From the IMG/VR virus record IMGVR_UViG_3300034418_010904, positions 1-22,549 of that record: a stretch of 22,549 nucleotides of DNA; one strand, 5' to 3'. The translations under genes and the position numbers were made by a program. The notes under the pieces are model-generated. The model was not told where the DNA came from. It was given only the letters and a program-made list of their open reading frames with translations, and ran no database searches. Source of the stretch: a virus. Every line of letters starts with the position of its first letter. Within the stretch, counting starts at the first letter, position 1. Shown here in pieces: positions 11,747-22,238 of the stretch.

Positions 11747-13783
11747 TTATCTGTATATCCCTTTATAAATTTCATCATTTGCTGATTCTGTGAACCAATT
11801 AGGCCCCTTGTACATAGAGCCAGTTTTTCCTTTCATAGTTCTCAGGTTTGCTCCGATAACACCATAGTTCATATCTGTAATAAGCTGCCTATTAATTTGC
11901 CTAGCAACCATATTAGCAATAATCAATGCACTATAACGGTCTTTACGAAGTTTTCCTTTCTTTCCATTTGGAAGCTTAATATCTGGAGTATCCCATTTAT
12001 CTCTTCCCCCAACTCCACTACTTGTTTGTGTCATTACAATAGTTGTAAGTTCATCTTTCAATTCTTCTATCTCTAATATACATTCACTTTCATTATCATA
12101 GATCTTTTCCATGTCCGTGTCCAGTATATCTTTTCCTTCTCTGTCTAAAGCAAAACCTAAAGAAAGCTCATCGAACCTTGGGAATAATAAAACCTTATCC
12201 TCTAAATCTTTTCTTAATCCGTGATTAGCACCTGCTGTCCAATCAGCCTTAGCAAACTGCACTAGTTCTAAAATATGAAGTCCCTGCTGATCATCTGTAT
12301 CTTTTTCTTTATCTGGATCGATAATAGGCCATATTAATTGCTCTCCTTCTTGTATCTTGTCAGGATCGTGCAGAGCCTCTTCTACTGCCACACCACCGCC
12401 TTGGGCATCCATTCCTATTCTTTCACAAGGAAATACTTTCATCAGCTCTCTAATTTTCCTAGCACAAAAACCATAGAAATCGTGCTCACCAACGAGTCCA
12501 GTTTTTAGTCTTTCTTTAAAGTTTGTTCTGTTTGTTGTCCAACAATAAACTATTCTAGTATGATCGGGATGAAGTTCTAGAACTACTATACTAAAATTAT
12601 CTTTCTCAGAAGCTGGATCGATTCCATAAACATATTTGTATTTAGAATTGCCTTTAGTGGCTATGTCGAAAAGAATCTTCTTATCATTAATTATTATTGG
12701 TTTGTCTTCTTTACAAACGCAACTTTCTATCAAACTTCTTTTAAAGAACCCATCACTATCTTCAGTGAAACAAGCGGCATACTCCATGTTATAAATTCCG
12801 GTATGAATCGTAGCTTTGGCTCTAGCAACCTGTTTGTCATCCATGAAACCTTTAGGAATTAATTCGTAGGGGATTCTAACTATGCTATAATCTTTCCAAT
12901 TAAAGTTTTCTGGCGCATCATTGCCGAAAATTTCTTTTAATTTATGTGGCCTACCCTTGCTATTAATAATCGCTTTGTAACGATTCCAGTATGAAGCGAA
13001 ATGCTTAAAACTATAATCCGCCGTTCCGCTGATAATAGCTTGGTTTCCTTTTTTAATCTGAATCTCTTCAAGCTCTTCGGTCCATATTCCAGCCTCTGTC
13101 ATTGCTTTCTTGCGAGCTTCTTCTTTCACGTTCTGAATAGGATTAGCGCTTACAGCTGCGAAACCTGCTACTACCGTTTCGTAAATATCCGGACTAATAC
13201 TAGCAAACTCATCAGCAATAATAATATGCGCACGAAGACCTCTAATCTTGCTTCCGTCTCCCATAGGAACAGCGATAGTCCAGCTGTCACCAAGACGAAT
13301 AGTACAACGATCAACATCTCTTCTGGGTCCATCTTCATTCCCACTAAATATACTCCTGATTATAGGACTATTTCTCCACATGTTTTCCATATATTCAAAT
13401 ATAACTTTACTTTGTCGGAAAGCCGCACCAACAATAACAATCTTTGTGCCTGGAACCATTATACACTTTAAAAAGCTATAAAGAGCCAAAGAAAAAGACT
13501 TACCAAAACCACGAGATGCAATAAACATAGGAAAAGGTCTGTACCAAAACTCTTGCATGAGTGCTACCTGAATCGGATGAAGCTCTATACCCATAAGGAG
13601 TTTAACAGTGGTTCCGAAATATTTGGGATTTCTGAGAAGACGAAGTAGATGTCTATCGGGATTTTCTATATCTTCCTTAGTTCTTCCAAAGAGAGGATTG
13701 TCTGGAAGAATAAGTTTATTTATATCACCTAGGCCTAGCCAACTATCGGCAAAAACATCTCTAGTTTCTGTTGTATTTGTCAT
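11747..13783 (-). CDS. terL: Terminase large subunit
   Basis: This 678-residue packaging motor has both expected domains. The N-terminal ATPase has a Walker A-like ASRGFGKS (89-96), Walker B HIIIADE (186-192, catalytic Glu192) and a coupling motif SGTAD (252-256). The C-terminal RNase H-like nuclease shows acidic residues in VYGIDPA (Asp389), IGMDAQGGG (Asp459) and KDRYSALIIA (Asp615). It docks on the portal, pumps DNA into the prohead and cuts the concatemer. Its first 23 bases overlap the end of the XPF-like nuclease gene, so expression is coupled. Length is a little above the usual 450-650. Function is certain from motifs and order; the packaging strategy (cos, pac or other) cannot be read from it. 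Confidence 0.96.
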   Translation of the reverse strand: MTNTTETRDVFADSWLGLGDINKLILPDNPLFGRTKEDIENPDRHLLRLLRNPKYFGTTVKLLMGIELHPIQVALMQEFWYRPFPMFIASRGFGKSFSLALYSFLKCIMVPGTKIVIVGAAFRQSKVIFEYMENMWRNSPIIRSIFSGNEDGPRRDVDRCTIRLGDSWTIAVPMGDGSKIRGLRAHIIIADEFASISPDIYETVVAGFAAVSANPIQNVKEEARKKAMTEAGIWTEELEEIQIKKGNQAIISGTADYSFKHFASYWNRYKAIINSKGRPHKLKEIFGNDAPENFNWKDYSIVRIPYELIPKGFMDDKQVARAKATIHTGIYNMEYAACFTEDSDGFFKRSLIESCVCKEDKPIIINDKKILFDIATKGNSKYKYVYGIDPASEKDNFSIVVLELHPDHTRIVYCWTTNRTNFKERLKTGLVGEHDFYGFCARKIRELMKVFPCERIGMDAQGGGVAVEEALHDPDKIQEGEQLIWPIIDPDKEKDTDDQQGLHILELVQFAKADWTAGANHGLRKDLEDKVLLFPRFDELSLGFALDREGKDILDTDMEKIYDNESECILEIEELKDELTTIVMTQTSSGVGGRDKWDTPDIKLPNGKKGKLRKDRYSALIIANMVARQINRQLITDMNYGVIGANLRTMKGKTGSMYKGPNWFTESANDEIYKGIYR

Positions 13784-15049: not shown

Positions 15050-15863
15050 CTAGATACTCCAAGCTTTCTGGTGTTAAGATTGGCTGGTCTACTTTCCCAT
15101 CCTGATATTGATGGTTCTCGTAGAGTTTTTCTTTAGCTTTTTGTGTTGCAATGGAGAGTATTTCCATTTCTTTACTTTCTTTCTCTCTAAGAACTTCATC
15201 TTCTAGCATTCTGATTAGTCCGACCCATGAACTTTTTCCATCCTCGATTCTTTTGATTCTTTGTTCTCTGGTGGCCTTGAGGTCTTTGCTGATTTTTTGT
15301 TGTTCGGAAAGCAGTTTGGTATATTCATTTGTATAGCTTGCTATAGAATTGCGGGCGAATGAGAGTTGTGTTTCGAGATTTGTGAGTTTAGGAATATCTC
15401 TTTGGTCTTCAGGCTTGTTGTATTCGTCGTCTACTTTTCTTTGAAGTCTTTCTGTTTCTGAGATGTGTCGCTTTCTTTCTTTCATAGAGCGATTAATAAG
15501 AATGTCTATTGTGATAAACTGTTTGATCTGAAGTTCTTCAGCAGGAAGTACGTCCTCTCTAAACTGTTTTACTAGGCCGATCCATGTATTTTCAAAATAT
15601 TCAAGCTCTCCTGTTTCTTCGTCAAATTGTCGAGTAATTTCAGACCAGAATGTTTTGGCGTGTAATTTTAATCGAAGATTTTGATCGGTAATATTTTCTT
15701 CTGGGTCGAACGAGAGCTTGTGATCAACAATATATCTTTGTATAGGTTTTGTGCTTCTGTTTAGAGCAGTGGCTATATCTTCTATACTCATAGAGCCGAT
15801 ATTGTCACGAATGAAATTCTGCTCATCTGTACTGAGCTGCCCTCTTTTTCTAGCTGCCTTCAT
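15033..15863 (-). CDS. HTH and coiled-coil DNA-binding protein, candidate small terminase subunit
   Basis: This is a 276-residue protein. Residues about 10-48 form a helix-turn-helix pattern (STDEQNFIRDNI, then IEDIATALNRSTKPIQRYI). The centre (about 128-205) is a long charged coiled coil. A short motif occurs on both sides of it: TWIGLVK (93-99) followed by EDVL, and SWVGLIR (212-218) followed by EDEVL, suggesting two symmetric arms of a helical hairpin. The C-terminus is acidic (EYLDDEEL). N-terminal HTH plus a helical oligomerisation core, with position upstream of large terminase in the same operon, fits a small terminase that recognises packaging sites. No sequence family is recognised with certainty; a transcription regulator is the alternative. 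Confidence 0.6.
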   Translation of the reverse strand: MKAARKRGQLSTDEQNFIRDNIGSMSIEDIATALNRSTKPIQRYIVDHKLSFDPEENITDQNLRLKLHAKTFWSEITRQFDEETGELEYFENTWIGLVKQFREDVLPAEELQIKQFITIDILINRSMKERKRHISETERLQRKVDDEYNKPEDQRDIPKLTNLETQLSFARNSIASYTNEYTKLLSEQQKISKDLKATREQRIKRIEDGKSSWVGLIRMLEDEVLREKESKEMEILSIATQKAKEKLYENHQYQDGKVDQPILTPESLEYLDDEEL

Positions 15864-16482
15864 GATTTATAATCTCTTTAATATCGTTGATAAGAATAAC
15901 CATTTCTGGCTTACTGATTTTAATTCCGGTTTTAAGTTTTAAATAAACTTTCCTGGCTTCTCCGTGAAGCTCTTCTTCTATAATCTCTAGGATCTCCTTG
16001 TTACTTACTGATTCAACATGGTCGTTAGAATAATTTACTATATATTCTTTAATGTCCTCTACGGTATTAAGATACATTAGGTTTTTCTTGCTGTTGTTTC
16101 TGTTGTGCCATGTAAGAAAGTCTTGGCATTCAGTGGTGTCTGTAAATTTTTCGCAGGAGGAAGGGAATAAAGGGTTGTTGGGTCGGAATAAAGGACAAGA
16201 GTTGCATGGTTTATCTGGTCTCTGATAGTTATCTCTTTTGAAATTAAAGAGACGGTTTCTTACATGGGTCCATAAAAAGTTTTCTAGTGGTCTTTTATGG
16301 TCGTAATTTTGAAGTCCTTCGATTGCAAATACGCTAATTTGCTGTCGCATATCCTCTATTTCGTGATATCCGAATTTGAATTTATAGGCGAGCTTCTTGC
16401 TGATGGTTTCTATTGTTTCTAGAAGTTCTTCCTCTGTTACATTATTCTGCTTGTGTGTCTTTACTCTCTTCTTTTTCTTCAT
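15850..16482 (-). CDS. Sigma70-like factor with Cys cluster, candidate late-gene sigma
   Basis: This is a 210-residue protein. Residues about 23-86 look like sigma region 2: ISKKLAYKFKFG, IEDMRQQISVFAIEGLQNYD and NFLWTHVRNRLFNFKRDNY. Here DMRQ stands for the core-binding helix and the aromatic, basic end for -10 recognition and melting. A Cys cluster follows (Cys93, Cys96, Cys110, Cys119; C-x2-C-x13-C-x8-C), possibly a zinc site. The C-terminal helices (about 162-205) could be a reduced region 4 or clamp-binding part. Size and layout recall T4 gp55-type late sigma factors, and a TATAAATA box lies at 6384-6391. Role in late transcription is inferred. It is the second gene from the minus-strand promoter. 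Its start overlaps the upstream gene and has only a weak ribosome site. Confidence 0.65.
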   Translation of the reverse strand: MKKKKRVKTHKQNNVTEEELLETIETISKKLAYKFKFGYHEIEDMRQQISVFAIEGLQNYDHKRPLENFLWTHVRNRLFNFKRDNYQRPDKPCNSCPLFRPNNPLFPSSCEKFTDTTECQDFLTWHNRNNSKKNLMYLNTVEDIKEYIVNYSNDHVESVSNKEILEIIEEELHGEARKVYLKLKTGIKISKPEMVILINDIKEIINHEGS

Positions 16483-17773: not shown

Positions 17774-17817
17774 TATAACTATACTTTTGTTCACCATCAC
17801 CCAAGCAAGGGGGCTAT

Positions 17818-17866
17818 CCCCCCATTGTGGGGGTGGCGGCCGGCCGGCATCCCCCATTAGGGGGGT
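17818..17866 (+). repeat. GC-rich multi-hairpin intergenic repeat, copy R1
   Basis: Layout: C6, ATTGT, G5 (hairpin A); a centre containing the palindrome GGCCGGCC; then C5, ATTA, G6 (hairpin B) and T. No T-run follows, so it is not a typical terminator. It follows the first three-gene unit. A reversed AGCAAAT-N4-TGCCAAA site lies 6-24 bases downstream. Confidence 0.85.
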
Positions 17867-17872
17867 AAGAGT

Positions 17873-17890
17873 TTTGGCATGATATTTGCT
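17873..17890 (-). promoter_or_regulatory. Bipartite site AGCAAAT-N4-TGCCAAA (reverse orientation)
   Basis: Reads TTTGGCA, TGAT, ATTTGCT on the plus strand, the reverse complement of the sites at 19848 and 20463. It lies between repeat R1 and promoter 2. Possible protein-binding or recombination site. Confidence 0.55.
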
Positions 17891-17925: not shown

Positions 17926-17954
17926 TTGACAGGCTCAAGAAAATCTGCTCCAAT
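17926..17954 (+). promoter_or_regulatory. Promoter 2 (TTGACA, TCCAAT)
   Basis: TTGACA (17926-17931) is followed after 17 bases by TCCAAT (17949-17954), a weak -10. The upstream ACATTTGTACA box is shared with promoter 3, 228 bases on. It lacks the clear GCCGATA box seen in most of the other promoters. It drives the first CPCC mini-protein. Confidence 0.55.
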
Positions 17955-17996: not shown

Positions 17997-18134
17997 ATGC
18001 AAAACGAAATCAACGAAATCCTGGCCTTCTCCGAGTGCTGCCTGGAACAAATGGTTGGCGAGCAACTCGACCACGAAATCTGCCCATGCTGTGGCGAACA
18101 CTGCCAGGTAACGTATGAGGATTGGAGTTGTTGA
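17997..18134 (+). CDS. CPCC mini-protein A, putative zinc-binding
   Basis: This 45-residue acidic protein has Cys pairs arranged as SECC, 13 residues, CPCC, GE, HCQV. The same spacing CC-x13-CPCC-x2-HC occurs in the product at 18738, so the two are paralogues. Four or more of these Cys/His residues could hold one or two zinc ions in a tiny ribbon. I chose the ATG at 17997 because AAAGGA lies six bases before it and the promoter is just upstream; an upstream extension would run through the promoter. The CPCC proteins I know of have a different spacing. The role is unknown; zinc ribbons often contact nucleic acid or RNA polymerase. Confidence 0.7.
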   Translation: MQNEINEILAFSECCLEQMVGEQLDHEICPCCGEHCQVTYEDWSC

Positions 18135-18151
18135 AAAACATTTGTACAGTG

Positions 18152-18180
18152 TTGACAGCCCGAAACCAGTTTAGTAGAAT
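18152..18180 (+). promoter_or_regulatory. Promoter 3 (TTGACA, 17, TAGAAT)
   Basis: Perfect TTGACA (18152-18157) and TAGAAT (18175-18180) at 17-base spacing. The spacer begins GCCCGAAACCAG, a diverged form of the GCCGATAACAG seen in promoter 10. ACATTTGTACA lies just upstream, as in promoter 2. Confidence 0.75.
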
Positions 18181-18210
18181 CAGAGCATCATCAACCCAAG
18201 GAACCTAACC

Positions 18211-18507
18211 ATGACTGACGACTTTCTGACCGTTGACCAGTTCAAAGCCGCCATCGCAGAACTGAACAGAGAACCCCTCTCAGAGGGGGAAGAGTTCTTC
18301 GACGCCCTTGAGGATTTTCGTGGGCCTGAGATTGAACTAGACTATACGCCTGAACAGGATGCCGCCTATGACGAGTGGTTGGCAAAGCGTAAAGCGAAGC
18401 GAGCCAAGAAGCGAGCTGCTGACCATGAGGCTGAGACGAGAGCGAAGACGCTGGCGTTCTATATGAACGAAGACAACATACTGAACGAACGTTCACTGTG
18501 GGACTGA
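18211..18507 (+). CDS. Small charged helical protein, unknown function
   Basis: This is a 98-residue protein. The first half is acidic (TDDFLTVDQFKAAIAELNRE, then EGEEFFDALEDFRGPE). It is followed by DYTPEQDAAYDEWLAKRK and a strongly basic helix (KAKRAKKRAADHEAETRAK), then an ending ILNERSLWD. The basic helix could bind nucleic acid or a partner. No family recognised. AAGGAAC precedes the ATG by six bases. The gene has its own promoter and is followed by repeat R2. Its GC content is visibly higher than that of the genes at 20-21.5 kb, a sign of separate origins within the block. Confidence 0.72.
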   Translation: MTDDFLTVDQFKAAIAELNREPLSEGEEFFDALEDFRGPEIELDYTPEQDAAYDEWLAKRKAKRAKKRAADHEAETRAKTLAFYMNEDNILNERSLWD

Positions 18508-18533
18508 ACGTCTGTACACTGAACACCCGTACA

Positions 18534-18582
18534 CCCCCCATTGTGGGGGTGCGGGCCGGCCGGCATCCCCCATTAGGGGGGT
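18534..18582 (+). repeat. GC-rich multi-hairpin intergenic repeat, copy R2
   Basis: Same layout as R1: C6-ATTGT-G5, a centre with GGCCGGCC, C5-ATTA-G6, T. It is preceded by TGAACACCCGTAC starting at a stop-proximal position, which also precedes R4, so the conserved unit can extend leftwards. Confidence 0.85.
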
Positions 18583-18592
18583 ATGCTGCCAG

Positions 18593-18633
18593 AGCAAATG
18601 GTGTGCCAAACTATTTTTGGCATAGGATTTGCT
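18593..18633. promoter_or_regulatory. Paired inverted bipartite sites
   Basis: AGCAAAT, 4 bases, TGCCAAA (18593-18610) faces TTTGGCA, 4 bases, ATTTGCT (18616-18633) across a 5-base centre. Arms are perfect over both 7-base blocks, while the 4-base parts do not match each other. Single copies occur near R1, R4 and R5. The dyad resembles a protein-binding or recombination site more than an RNA hairpin. Confidence 0.65.
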
Positions 18634-18668
18634 ACAAAAAAAATTCCAAAAAAAACTTGGCCGAGGGG

Positions 18669-18697
18669 TTGACGCTTACCGATATCTATTGTAGACT
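18669..18697 (+). promoter_or_regulatory. Promoter 4 (TTGACG, 17, TAGACT) with ACCGATA
   Basis: TTGACG (18669-18674) and TAGACT (18692-18697) at 17-base spacing with ACCGATA inside the spacer. It starts the three-gene unit 18738-19211. Confidence 0.65.
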
Positions 18698-18737
18698 TGG
18701 GGGCATGATAACCAACCTTACCAACGGAGACTCACTC

Positions 18738-18911
18738 ATGAGCATCGCCTTTGAAACCGTCCAGATCGAGGAAACCTTTGCCGAAGTTCAGGTCGCCACT
18801 AGCGGCTGCTGCAACGTGTTCCTCGATGACACCGAGGTAGAATACGAAGTCTGCCCATGCTGTAAGGATCACTGTGAGGTGATCATCGACTACATGCCCG
18901 TTCAACTGTGA
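18738..18911 (+). CDS. CPCC mini-protein B, putative zinc-binding
   Basis: This is a 57-residue acidic protein: MSIAFETVQIEETFAEVQV, then SGCC, 13 residues, CPCC, KD, HCEV, and an ending of Asp/Tyr/Met/Pro. Cys spacing is identical to the protein at 17997, with [HY]E[IV]CPCC..HC.V shared. The rest has diverged strongly, so the Cys frame is what is kept. GGAG lies nine bases before this ATG. The ATG at 18705 would be at the expected transcription start and have no ribosome site, so I reject it. It is the first gene of a unit with a membrane micro-protein and a small basic protein. Confidence 0.72.
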   Translation: MSIAFETVQIEETFAEVQVATSGCCNVFLDDTEVEYEVCPCCKDHCEVIIDYMPVQL

Positions 18912-19016: not shown

Positions 19017-19211
19017 ATGTTCAGTATCGAAAACAATGGCCCATACTTCCAGGCTGTGCTCGAAACCATGAGCGATGAGGAGATCACCGCTCGCATGCAC
19101 GGTGCAAGCCGTAGGCTATCTGATCAAACGATCAGTACTGCACACCGTACACTACTGCGGTGCGTTATCACCGAAGGCGCAACCGAGTTGCGAAAGAGGT
19201 GGTTCAACTAG
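19017..19211 (+). CDS. Small basic helical protein, unknown function
   Basis: This 64-residue protein begins MFSIENNGPYFQAVLETMSD and continues with EEITARMHGASRRLSDQTIS and a helix ending ATELRKRWFN. It is probably all helical and slightly basic. No family recognised. GGAG lies seven bases before the ATG. It closes the unit from promoter 4 and is followed by repeat R3. TGTACA occurs twice right after the stop, recalling the TGTACA boxes of promoters 2 and 3. Confidence 0.68.
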   Translation: MFSIENNGPYFQAVLETMSDEEITARMHGASRRLSDQTISTAHRTLLRCVITEGATELRKRWFN

Positions 19212-19268: not shown

Positions 19269-19317
19269 CCCCCCATTGTGGGGGTGCGGGCCGGCCGCCA
19301 TCCCCCATTAGGGGGGT
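19269..19317 (+). repeat. GC-rich multi-hairpin intergenic repeat, copy R3
   Basis: C6-ATTGT-G5, a centre with GGCCGGCC, C5-ATTA-G6, T. The final T is also the first base of a TTGACA box, so the repeat abuts the promoter with no spacer, as in R6. Confidence 0.85.
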
Positions 19318-19345
19318 TGACAAAAATCTTTTCTTTTTCTAAAGA
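19317..19345 (+). promoter_or_regulatory. Promoter 5 (TTGACA, 17, TAAAGA), with a second GCCGATA/TATAGG element downstream
   Basis: TTGACA (19317-19322) fused to R3, a T-rich spacer, then TAAAGA (19340-19345). About 15 bases on, GCCGATA (19361-19367) is followed after five bases by TATAGG (19373-19378) without a TTGACA at the normal distance. Either element could direct the gene at 19408. The first half closely matches promoter 8 (TTGACAARAATCTTTT). Confidence 0.5.
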
Positions 19346-22046: not shown

Positions 22047-22154
22047 AGTCCAGTAGCCGTCGCCATGAGCCAGACGAACCGCAAGGTTCTAGAGAGGATT
22101 TCCGTGGACGGTTTTAGGAATCGGGGCGTAAAAGATTCCGCTGGTTTATCCCAT
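22047..22154 (+). other. Transcribed leader between promoter 11 and the tRNA
   Basis: About 108 bases with no convincing gene. A 34-codon frame from ATG at 22065 lacks a ribosome site and ends inside the tRNA, so I do not call it. The stretch probably forms the tRNA precursor's 5' leader, removed by RNase P. I see no strong hairpin in it. Confidence 0.4.
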
Positions 22155-22225
22155 TCGGGGGTGGTGTAACGGTAGCACAAAGGATTTTGGTTCCTTTTGT
22201 CGGGGTTCGAATCCCTGCCCCCGAG
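22155..22225 (+). tRNA. tRNA-Gln (anticodon TTG)
   Basis: The cloverleaf is complete: acceptor TCGGGGG/CCCCCGA, D stem GTGT/GCAC, anticodon stem AAGGA/TCCTT with loop TTTTGGT (anticodon TTG, reads CAA and by wobble CAG), and T arm CGGGG-TTCGAAT-CCCTG with one G-T pair. The discriminator is G. No CCA is encoded, so the host must add it. The total is 71 bases. It has its own consensus promoter about 115 bases upstream. A small imperfect hairpin follows at 22239-22261. The phage may use it to support Gln codons, including those of the Gln-rich gene upstream. Confidence 0.93.
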
Positions 22226-22238
22226 TTTCTTGTCTCAC

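Follow-up and report, generated by a model that had tools for sequence, protein, structure and literature searches.

The two mini-proteins encoded by the window (the whole 22.5-kb virus record analysed here, part of an uncultivated phage) belong to a recurring, selected and syntenic family of small acidic Cys/His proteins, bounded here by profile searches of all the fetched IMG/VR-derived loci, of which 66, some overlapping one another, yielded 83 distinct members. The family is not catalogued in the family libraries and isolate collections that were used, and a search pattern for it is provided; it is new and unnamed, and small zinc ribbons form the broad, familiar class into which it falls. 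Our preferred reading, to which we assign a probability of about 45%, is that these uncatalogued acidic proteins, which come from a large lineage of uncultivated phages, bind metal, are made early and dock on a host or phage protein, with the paralogues having different targets.

The left three quarters of the window comprise late-type genes on the minus strand, which include tail-fibre-like genes, an ERCC4-type nuclease, an HNH endonuclease (all profile matches) and the terminase large subunit (11747..13783, minus strand), assigned through its match to phrog_2 (E 1.4e-22) and by synteny. Rightwards from ~17.1 kb the plus strand carries small open reading frames (ORFs) arranged in units, and it is here that both mini-genes are located, 4.2-5.0 kb from the terminase and on the opposite strand. 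The first (17997..18134, plus strand) encodes a 45-residue protein containing SECC-x13-CPCCGEHCQ, and the second (18738..18911, plus strand) a 57-residue protein containing SGCC-x13-CPCCKDHCEV; an in-frame ATG lies upstream of the latter gene at 18705, and its start at 18738 is preceded by GGAG. The ORF listing of this region holds many spurious frames. The list also contains a 98-residue acidic ORF (18211..18507, plus strand) that separates the mini-genes and occupies a cassette of its own; its sole match in PHROGs was a weak one to a scaffolding protein (E 0.003). At 15850-16482 (minus strand), adjoining the divergent intergenic region, is an ORF with a weak, below-cut-off match to sigma-70 region 2 (Pfam E 0.0003), which is possibly a phage late sigma factor, and a tRNA-Gln (TTG) gene (22154-22226, plus strand) is positioned at the right end of the window.

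According to the original prediction the two products share the pattern S-x-C-C-x13-C-P-C-C-x2-H-C-[QE]-V, and this is indeed present in both translations. The similarity between the 45- and 57-residue proteins is beyond chance, as a single BLASTP comparison returned 12 identities in 30 positions with an E value of 6e-08. Orthologues of the shorter protein, displaying 84-96% identity, are found in L010, L014, L021 and L022, while those of the longer one (77-93% identity) are in L007, L014, L015, L016 and L020. Between close homologues dN/dS is about 0.04-0.19 for the 45-residue gene and 0.11-0.15 for the 57-residue gene; in comparisons with the window copies it is 0.04-0.17 and 0.11-0.14, respectively. 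These values are well below 1 and thus both mini-genes are selected genes, whose products are under strong purifying selection.

The wider family was collected with an exact DNA pattern scan of IMG/VR, which identified 17 contigs, a profile scan of the same resource with 19 seed proteins (53 loci) and a wider pattern scan (35 stretches). Members are roughly 38-60 residues in length and conform to the signature S-[DEG]-C-C-x(9-17)-C-P-x-C-G-[ED]-H-C-E. A profile search for homologues retaining the Cys positions had been proposed as a check on the two genes; the members found (83) include 67 that were aligned, in all of which S12, C14, C15, C29 and C32, the Ser, CC and CxxC positions, are invariant. 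H35 (65/67) and C36 (66/67) are near-invariant, and P30 is retained in 55. The third Cys of CPCC, at position 31, is found in just 22 of the aligned proteins, however, and the loop between CC and CxxC, although 13 residues long in 62 of the 83 members, contains 9, 10, 11 or 17 residues in the others. Thus, the CPCC motif and the rigid x13 spacing, which the two window proteins share, are features of a sub-group. The idea of a conserved Cys/His micro-domain under selection is upheld by the invariant Cys residues, the low dN/dS and a fold that is predicted with confidence. One paralogue in L014 (37-165, minus strand) lacks the His and the last Cys (CPCCGEWTEP) and retains the four invariant Cys. 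Two members, at 5926-6333 of L133 and 5995-6417 of L152, have long C-terminal extensions, the open frame continuing for ~100-130 residues past CC. All 74 members examined are acidic, with a net charge of -2 to -15 (median -9.5), and 20 of these contain no Lys or Arg. Acidity extends to further small ORFs in the array that carries the mini-genes (-11, -15 and -20).

Searches of Pfam and PHROGs revealed no match for the two window proteins, and Pfam, NCBIfam and PADLOC provided no convincing match for any family member, PADLOC yielding only two single-member matches (E 0.03-0.05). The best PHROGs matches across the family, to phrog_37054 (E 0.0005) and phrog_22001 (E 0.0008), were obtained with few of the mini-proteins, and the function of both PHROGs is unknown. 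No account of this family was found in the literature on CPCC phage zinc proteins, YdjO-SigA and zinc-binding early phage proteins. The view that known CPCC families have another arrangement of Cys residues is consistent with these data, as no Pfam CPCC or CPXCG match was above cut-off. PF14206 (Cys_rich_CPCC), of which 8ey3 and 8ey4 are solved members, was not among the matches listed for any of the 67 proteins. Like the mini-proteins it is small, rich in Cys and built on a CC...CP-x-C core, and 8ey3 was matched by the A1 profile with E 0.07; the aligned stretch of 8ey3, however, is CPCCGNKT...CYEICPICG, which places CPCC on the first knuckle, whereas in the family described here CPCC is not conserved and, in the members that have it, belongs to the second knuckle. 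Similarly, PF14255 (Cys_rich_CPXG) is short, Cys-rich and contains CPxC, but matches to it are not significant; none was above the gathering score, two of the 67 members matched weakly (best E 0.048) and the other 65 had no match.

Models of both window proteins were generated with AlphaFold from family alignments and had a mean pLDDT of 89.6 (45 residues) and 83.7 (57 residues), with values above 90 in the Cys region. The predicted order of elements is a strand, SxCC, a short helix, CPxCGEHC and a second strand; around the motifs SECC and CPCCGEHC the strands are at 6-12 and 38-44 and the helix is at 21-25, all at high pLDDT. In the models two Cys/His knuckles each lie beside a strand of a small sheet, the arrangement that defines a zinc ribbon. 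Structural matches were weak, with Z reaching at most 2.8 and Foldseek E values near 1, and were largely to zinc-binding modules, namely the zinc ribbons of Rpb2 and Rpb12, the knuckles of MetRS and MCM and the rubredoxin-like DUF35, while profile searches of the PDB returned nothing significant. With Rpb12, the C-terminal ribbon of Rpb2 and DUF35 the predicted models share two knuckles bridging a two-stranded sheet, VIA-align giving weak scores (Z 2.1-2.8 over 34-43 residues) against these zinc-ribbon/rubredoxin-like folds. In contrast to these ribbons, the mini-proteins are free-standing and very acidic, and their first knuckle is a vicinal CC rather than CxxC, the second being CPxCGEHC. The predicted fold and the nature of the matches make a metal site likely, in which the metal, most simply Zn, would probably be bound by four of C14, C15, C29, C32, H35 and C36. 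Judging by the CPCCGEWTEP copy in L014, H35 and C36 appear not always to be needed as ligands; the core metal site may accordingly consist of the four invariant Cys.

The synteny seen in the window recurs elsewhere. At 42 loci, some overlapping, where a mini-gene was found together with a related terminase, it lies 2.8-7.5 kb upstream of the terminase and on the opposite strand, and the mini-genes sit in an array of small cassettes, with up to four copies per contig (L014) and three in both L015 and L061. Among 15 further records that were tested, nine carry the terminase family (54-77% identity); the remaining six could be fragmentary or belong to other lineages. Even the closest terminases from cultured phages show only about 23-26% identity, and the lineage is therefore essentially uncultivated. 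In a tblastn search of 50,697 isolated-phage records with family members and the consensus there were either no matches or marginal ones (E 0.9-10), 45-residue queries being insensitive in such a search; four of the marginal matches were inspected with the family profile and none was a convincing member. Plasmids provided marginal matches only. Two matches, one of them plausible, were obtained in 84,980 bacterial and archaeal genomes. The plausible match is on a short contig of a gammaproteobacterial metagenome-assembled genome (L155), which is likely to be a binned phage. The other, in Mesorhizobium, looks spurious, and the family profile run over its genome gave no confirmation.

It could be argued that the two mini-genes arose through a duplication peculiar to this phage. 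In the tree, however, for which low support is expected with such short sequences, the 45- and 57-residue genes fall into separate clades, and both have orthologues of their own in L014, L015 and other phages. The two are thus not each other's closest relatives, and the tree indicates that they are old out-paralogues. A recent duplication of a cassette is evident in L014 (169 nt at 91%). Between the window and L014 cassette DNA is 82-97% identical, whereas the structural genes are mostly 64-67% identical at the DNA level and the terminases about 55% identical as proteins; in addition, L016 and L020 contain the same cassettes in a different order. The similarity of cassettes in phages with diverged terminases, together with this reordering, shows that the cassettes move between phages, plausibly through recombination at repeated intergenic elements.

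Two such elements recur in the array. A 53-nt GC-rich dyad is present in six copies, at 17818, 18534, 19269, 19793, 20411 and 21606 (70-92% to the reference copy). The repeat search placed the first upstream of the 45-residue cassette (17818..17870, plus strand), the second between the two mini-gene units (18534..18586, plus strand) and the third after the 57-residue unit (19269..19321, plus strand). RNA folding covered all three of these copies, and the fold of 17805-17885, which spans the first, has an energy of -39.9 kcal/mol (z -1.8). The dyad occurs in the relatives L016, L017, L019 and L020, and in diverged form in L015; copies flank the mini-genes in L016/L031 and L020. Ordinary intrinsic terminators were considered and rejected as an explanation, as most copies are not followed by a T run and a terminator scan made no call; the dyads are possibly processing or recombination sites. 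The second element, TGGCAY-N5-TTGC, is ~70-fold over-represented in the window (5 observed against 0.07 expected, at 17875, 18594, 18618, 19849 and 20464) and was detected in 128 of 176 loci. One copy is upstream of the 45-residue gene (17875..17889, plus strand) and an inverted pair is upstream of the 57-residue gene (18594..18632). In either orientation it lies within 400 nt upstream of 42 of the 74 mini-genes with enough sequence, typically ~45-51 nt upstream of a TTGAC box and often as inverted pairs. The motif resembles the -24/-12 consensus of sigma-54; its independence of orientation suggests the site of a regulator rather than a sigma-54 promoter.

The mini-genes had been assigned to separate transcription units with different promoters. 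Separate units agree with the layout, in which a TTGAC-type promoter-like site stands before both genes, TTGACA-N17-TCCAAT (17926..17954, plus strand) before the 45-residue gene and TTGACG-N17-TAGACT (18669..18697, plus strand) before the 57-residue gene, with a GC-rich dyad between the units. The promoter regions are not, however, different in kind, for both share a single layout of TGGCAY-N5-TTGC followed by a TTGAC-type site. The homologous L014 cassette has TTGACA-N17-TAGAAT at the position equivalent to the first site, and a strong promoter-like sequence of this same form (18152..18180, plus strand) directly follows the 45-residue gene, before the next small ORF. Across the family, TTGAC-type sites are present within 400 nt upstream of 41 of 74 mini-genes, compared with 20% of random windows. 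The small genes of Cluster K mycobacteriophages are associated with short repeats, SAS and ESAS, with a possible role in regulating these genes and as targets of recombination (PMC3203893). The window resembles that system in having repeated intergenic elements in a small-gene array, but the sequences, positions and hosts differ, the elements here being the GC-rich dyad and TGGCAY-N5-TTGC upstream of TTGAC-type promoters.

In the reading that we favour, each mini-protein would be a two-stranded ribbon, running from an N-terminal strand through the first knuckle (S-x-C-C), a short helical loop that differs in length between members and the second knuckle (C-P-x-C-G-E-H-C) to a C-terminal strand, and holding, most likely, a single zinc. 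It would be expressed from an individual promoter cassette in the small-gene array opposite the structural genes, probably early in infection, a timing suggested by the strong promoter-like sites of this array, which opposes the late genes. The protein would then dock on a basic, possibly nucleic-acid-binding, surface of a host or phage protein, such as RNA polymerase, a nuclease or a defence protein, and the partner would be inhibited or redirected, the paralogues serving different targets. Protein docking is the most likely action in view of a conserved body with variable tails and loop, a strongly negative charge and the accumulation of paralogues. It should be emphasized, however, that the acidity may partly reflect the genome, as neighbouring small ORFs are also acidic, and this weakens the argument from charge. 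A more specific formulation, a new family of acidic zinc ribbons with CC/CPxC/HC ligands, known so far essentially from uncultivated phages alone and both multiplied and exchanged as single-gene cassettes, in which each paralogue neutralises or re-tasks a different host protein, is put forward tentatively. If members do bind host proteins they would be compact tools, of 45 residues and with a confidently predicted fold, with which further vulnerabilities of the host could be sought, and the layout of the cassettes shows how such genes spread between phages.

Small, acidic, early-type proteins that are present in multiple copies, on cassettes exchanged between phages, might also be inhibitors of restriction, CRISPR or abortive-infection systems, whose copies are kept by an arms race. 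This we consider unlikely, since defence-linked matches are single and weak (at best phrog_6422, Lar-like, E 0.043) and selection among close homologues is strongly purifying, not diversifying. A set of conserved residues that comprises five Cys, among them the invariant vicinal CC, and a His within ~45 residues would also suit zinc buffers, thiol redox carriers or iron-sulfur proteins with no specific target. Such a metal or redox role is doubtful, however, as a structured binding module is indicated by the conservation of S, G, E and P near the Cys residues, the defined predicted fold and the tails that are specific to each paralogue. Redox proteins with CPxC normally adopt a thioredoxin fold, and the predicted model is not one. 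The resemblance of the predicted fold to ribosomal and RNA-polymerase zinc ribbons, and weak profile matches to archaeal zinc-ribbon RNA-binding proteins (E 0.18-0.5), could indicate direct binding of nucleic acid by transcription or translation factors akin to small ribosomal zinc proteins. Those matches are not significant, however, and the median charge, with over a quarter of members devoid of Lys and Arg, is unfavourable for contact with a phosphate backbone; as all 74 members are acidic, direct nucleic-acid binding is quite improbable and protein docking the more likely action. That the two window genes are unrelated or spurious ORFs with a chance resemblance, as their very short length in a region rich in spurious frames might imply, is refuted by the 83 distinct homologues, the conserved synteny and the dN/dS values.

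Small partner ORFs of 59-67 residues are found near the mini-genes, in the window at 19017-19211 and also in L012, L109, L177, L206 and L210. The window copy (19017..19211, plus strand; 64 residues) follows the 57-residue gene in the orthologous cassettes of L007, L014, L015, L016 and L020. This type adjoins the 57-residue clade, to which it is confined, and a second type occurs elsewhere in the lineage; the two types may be distantly related, although their similarity is not significant. Downstream neighbours elsewhere differ, and no operon partner conserved across the family was found. In two contigs, G019 (L139) and G020 (L126), the terminase is split, at different sites, into two matching parts within one long frame of ~1,024-1,031 residues, an arrangement suggestive of inteins.
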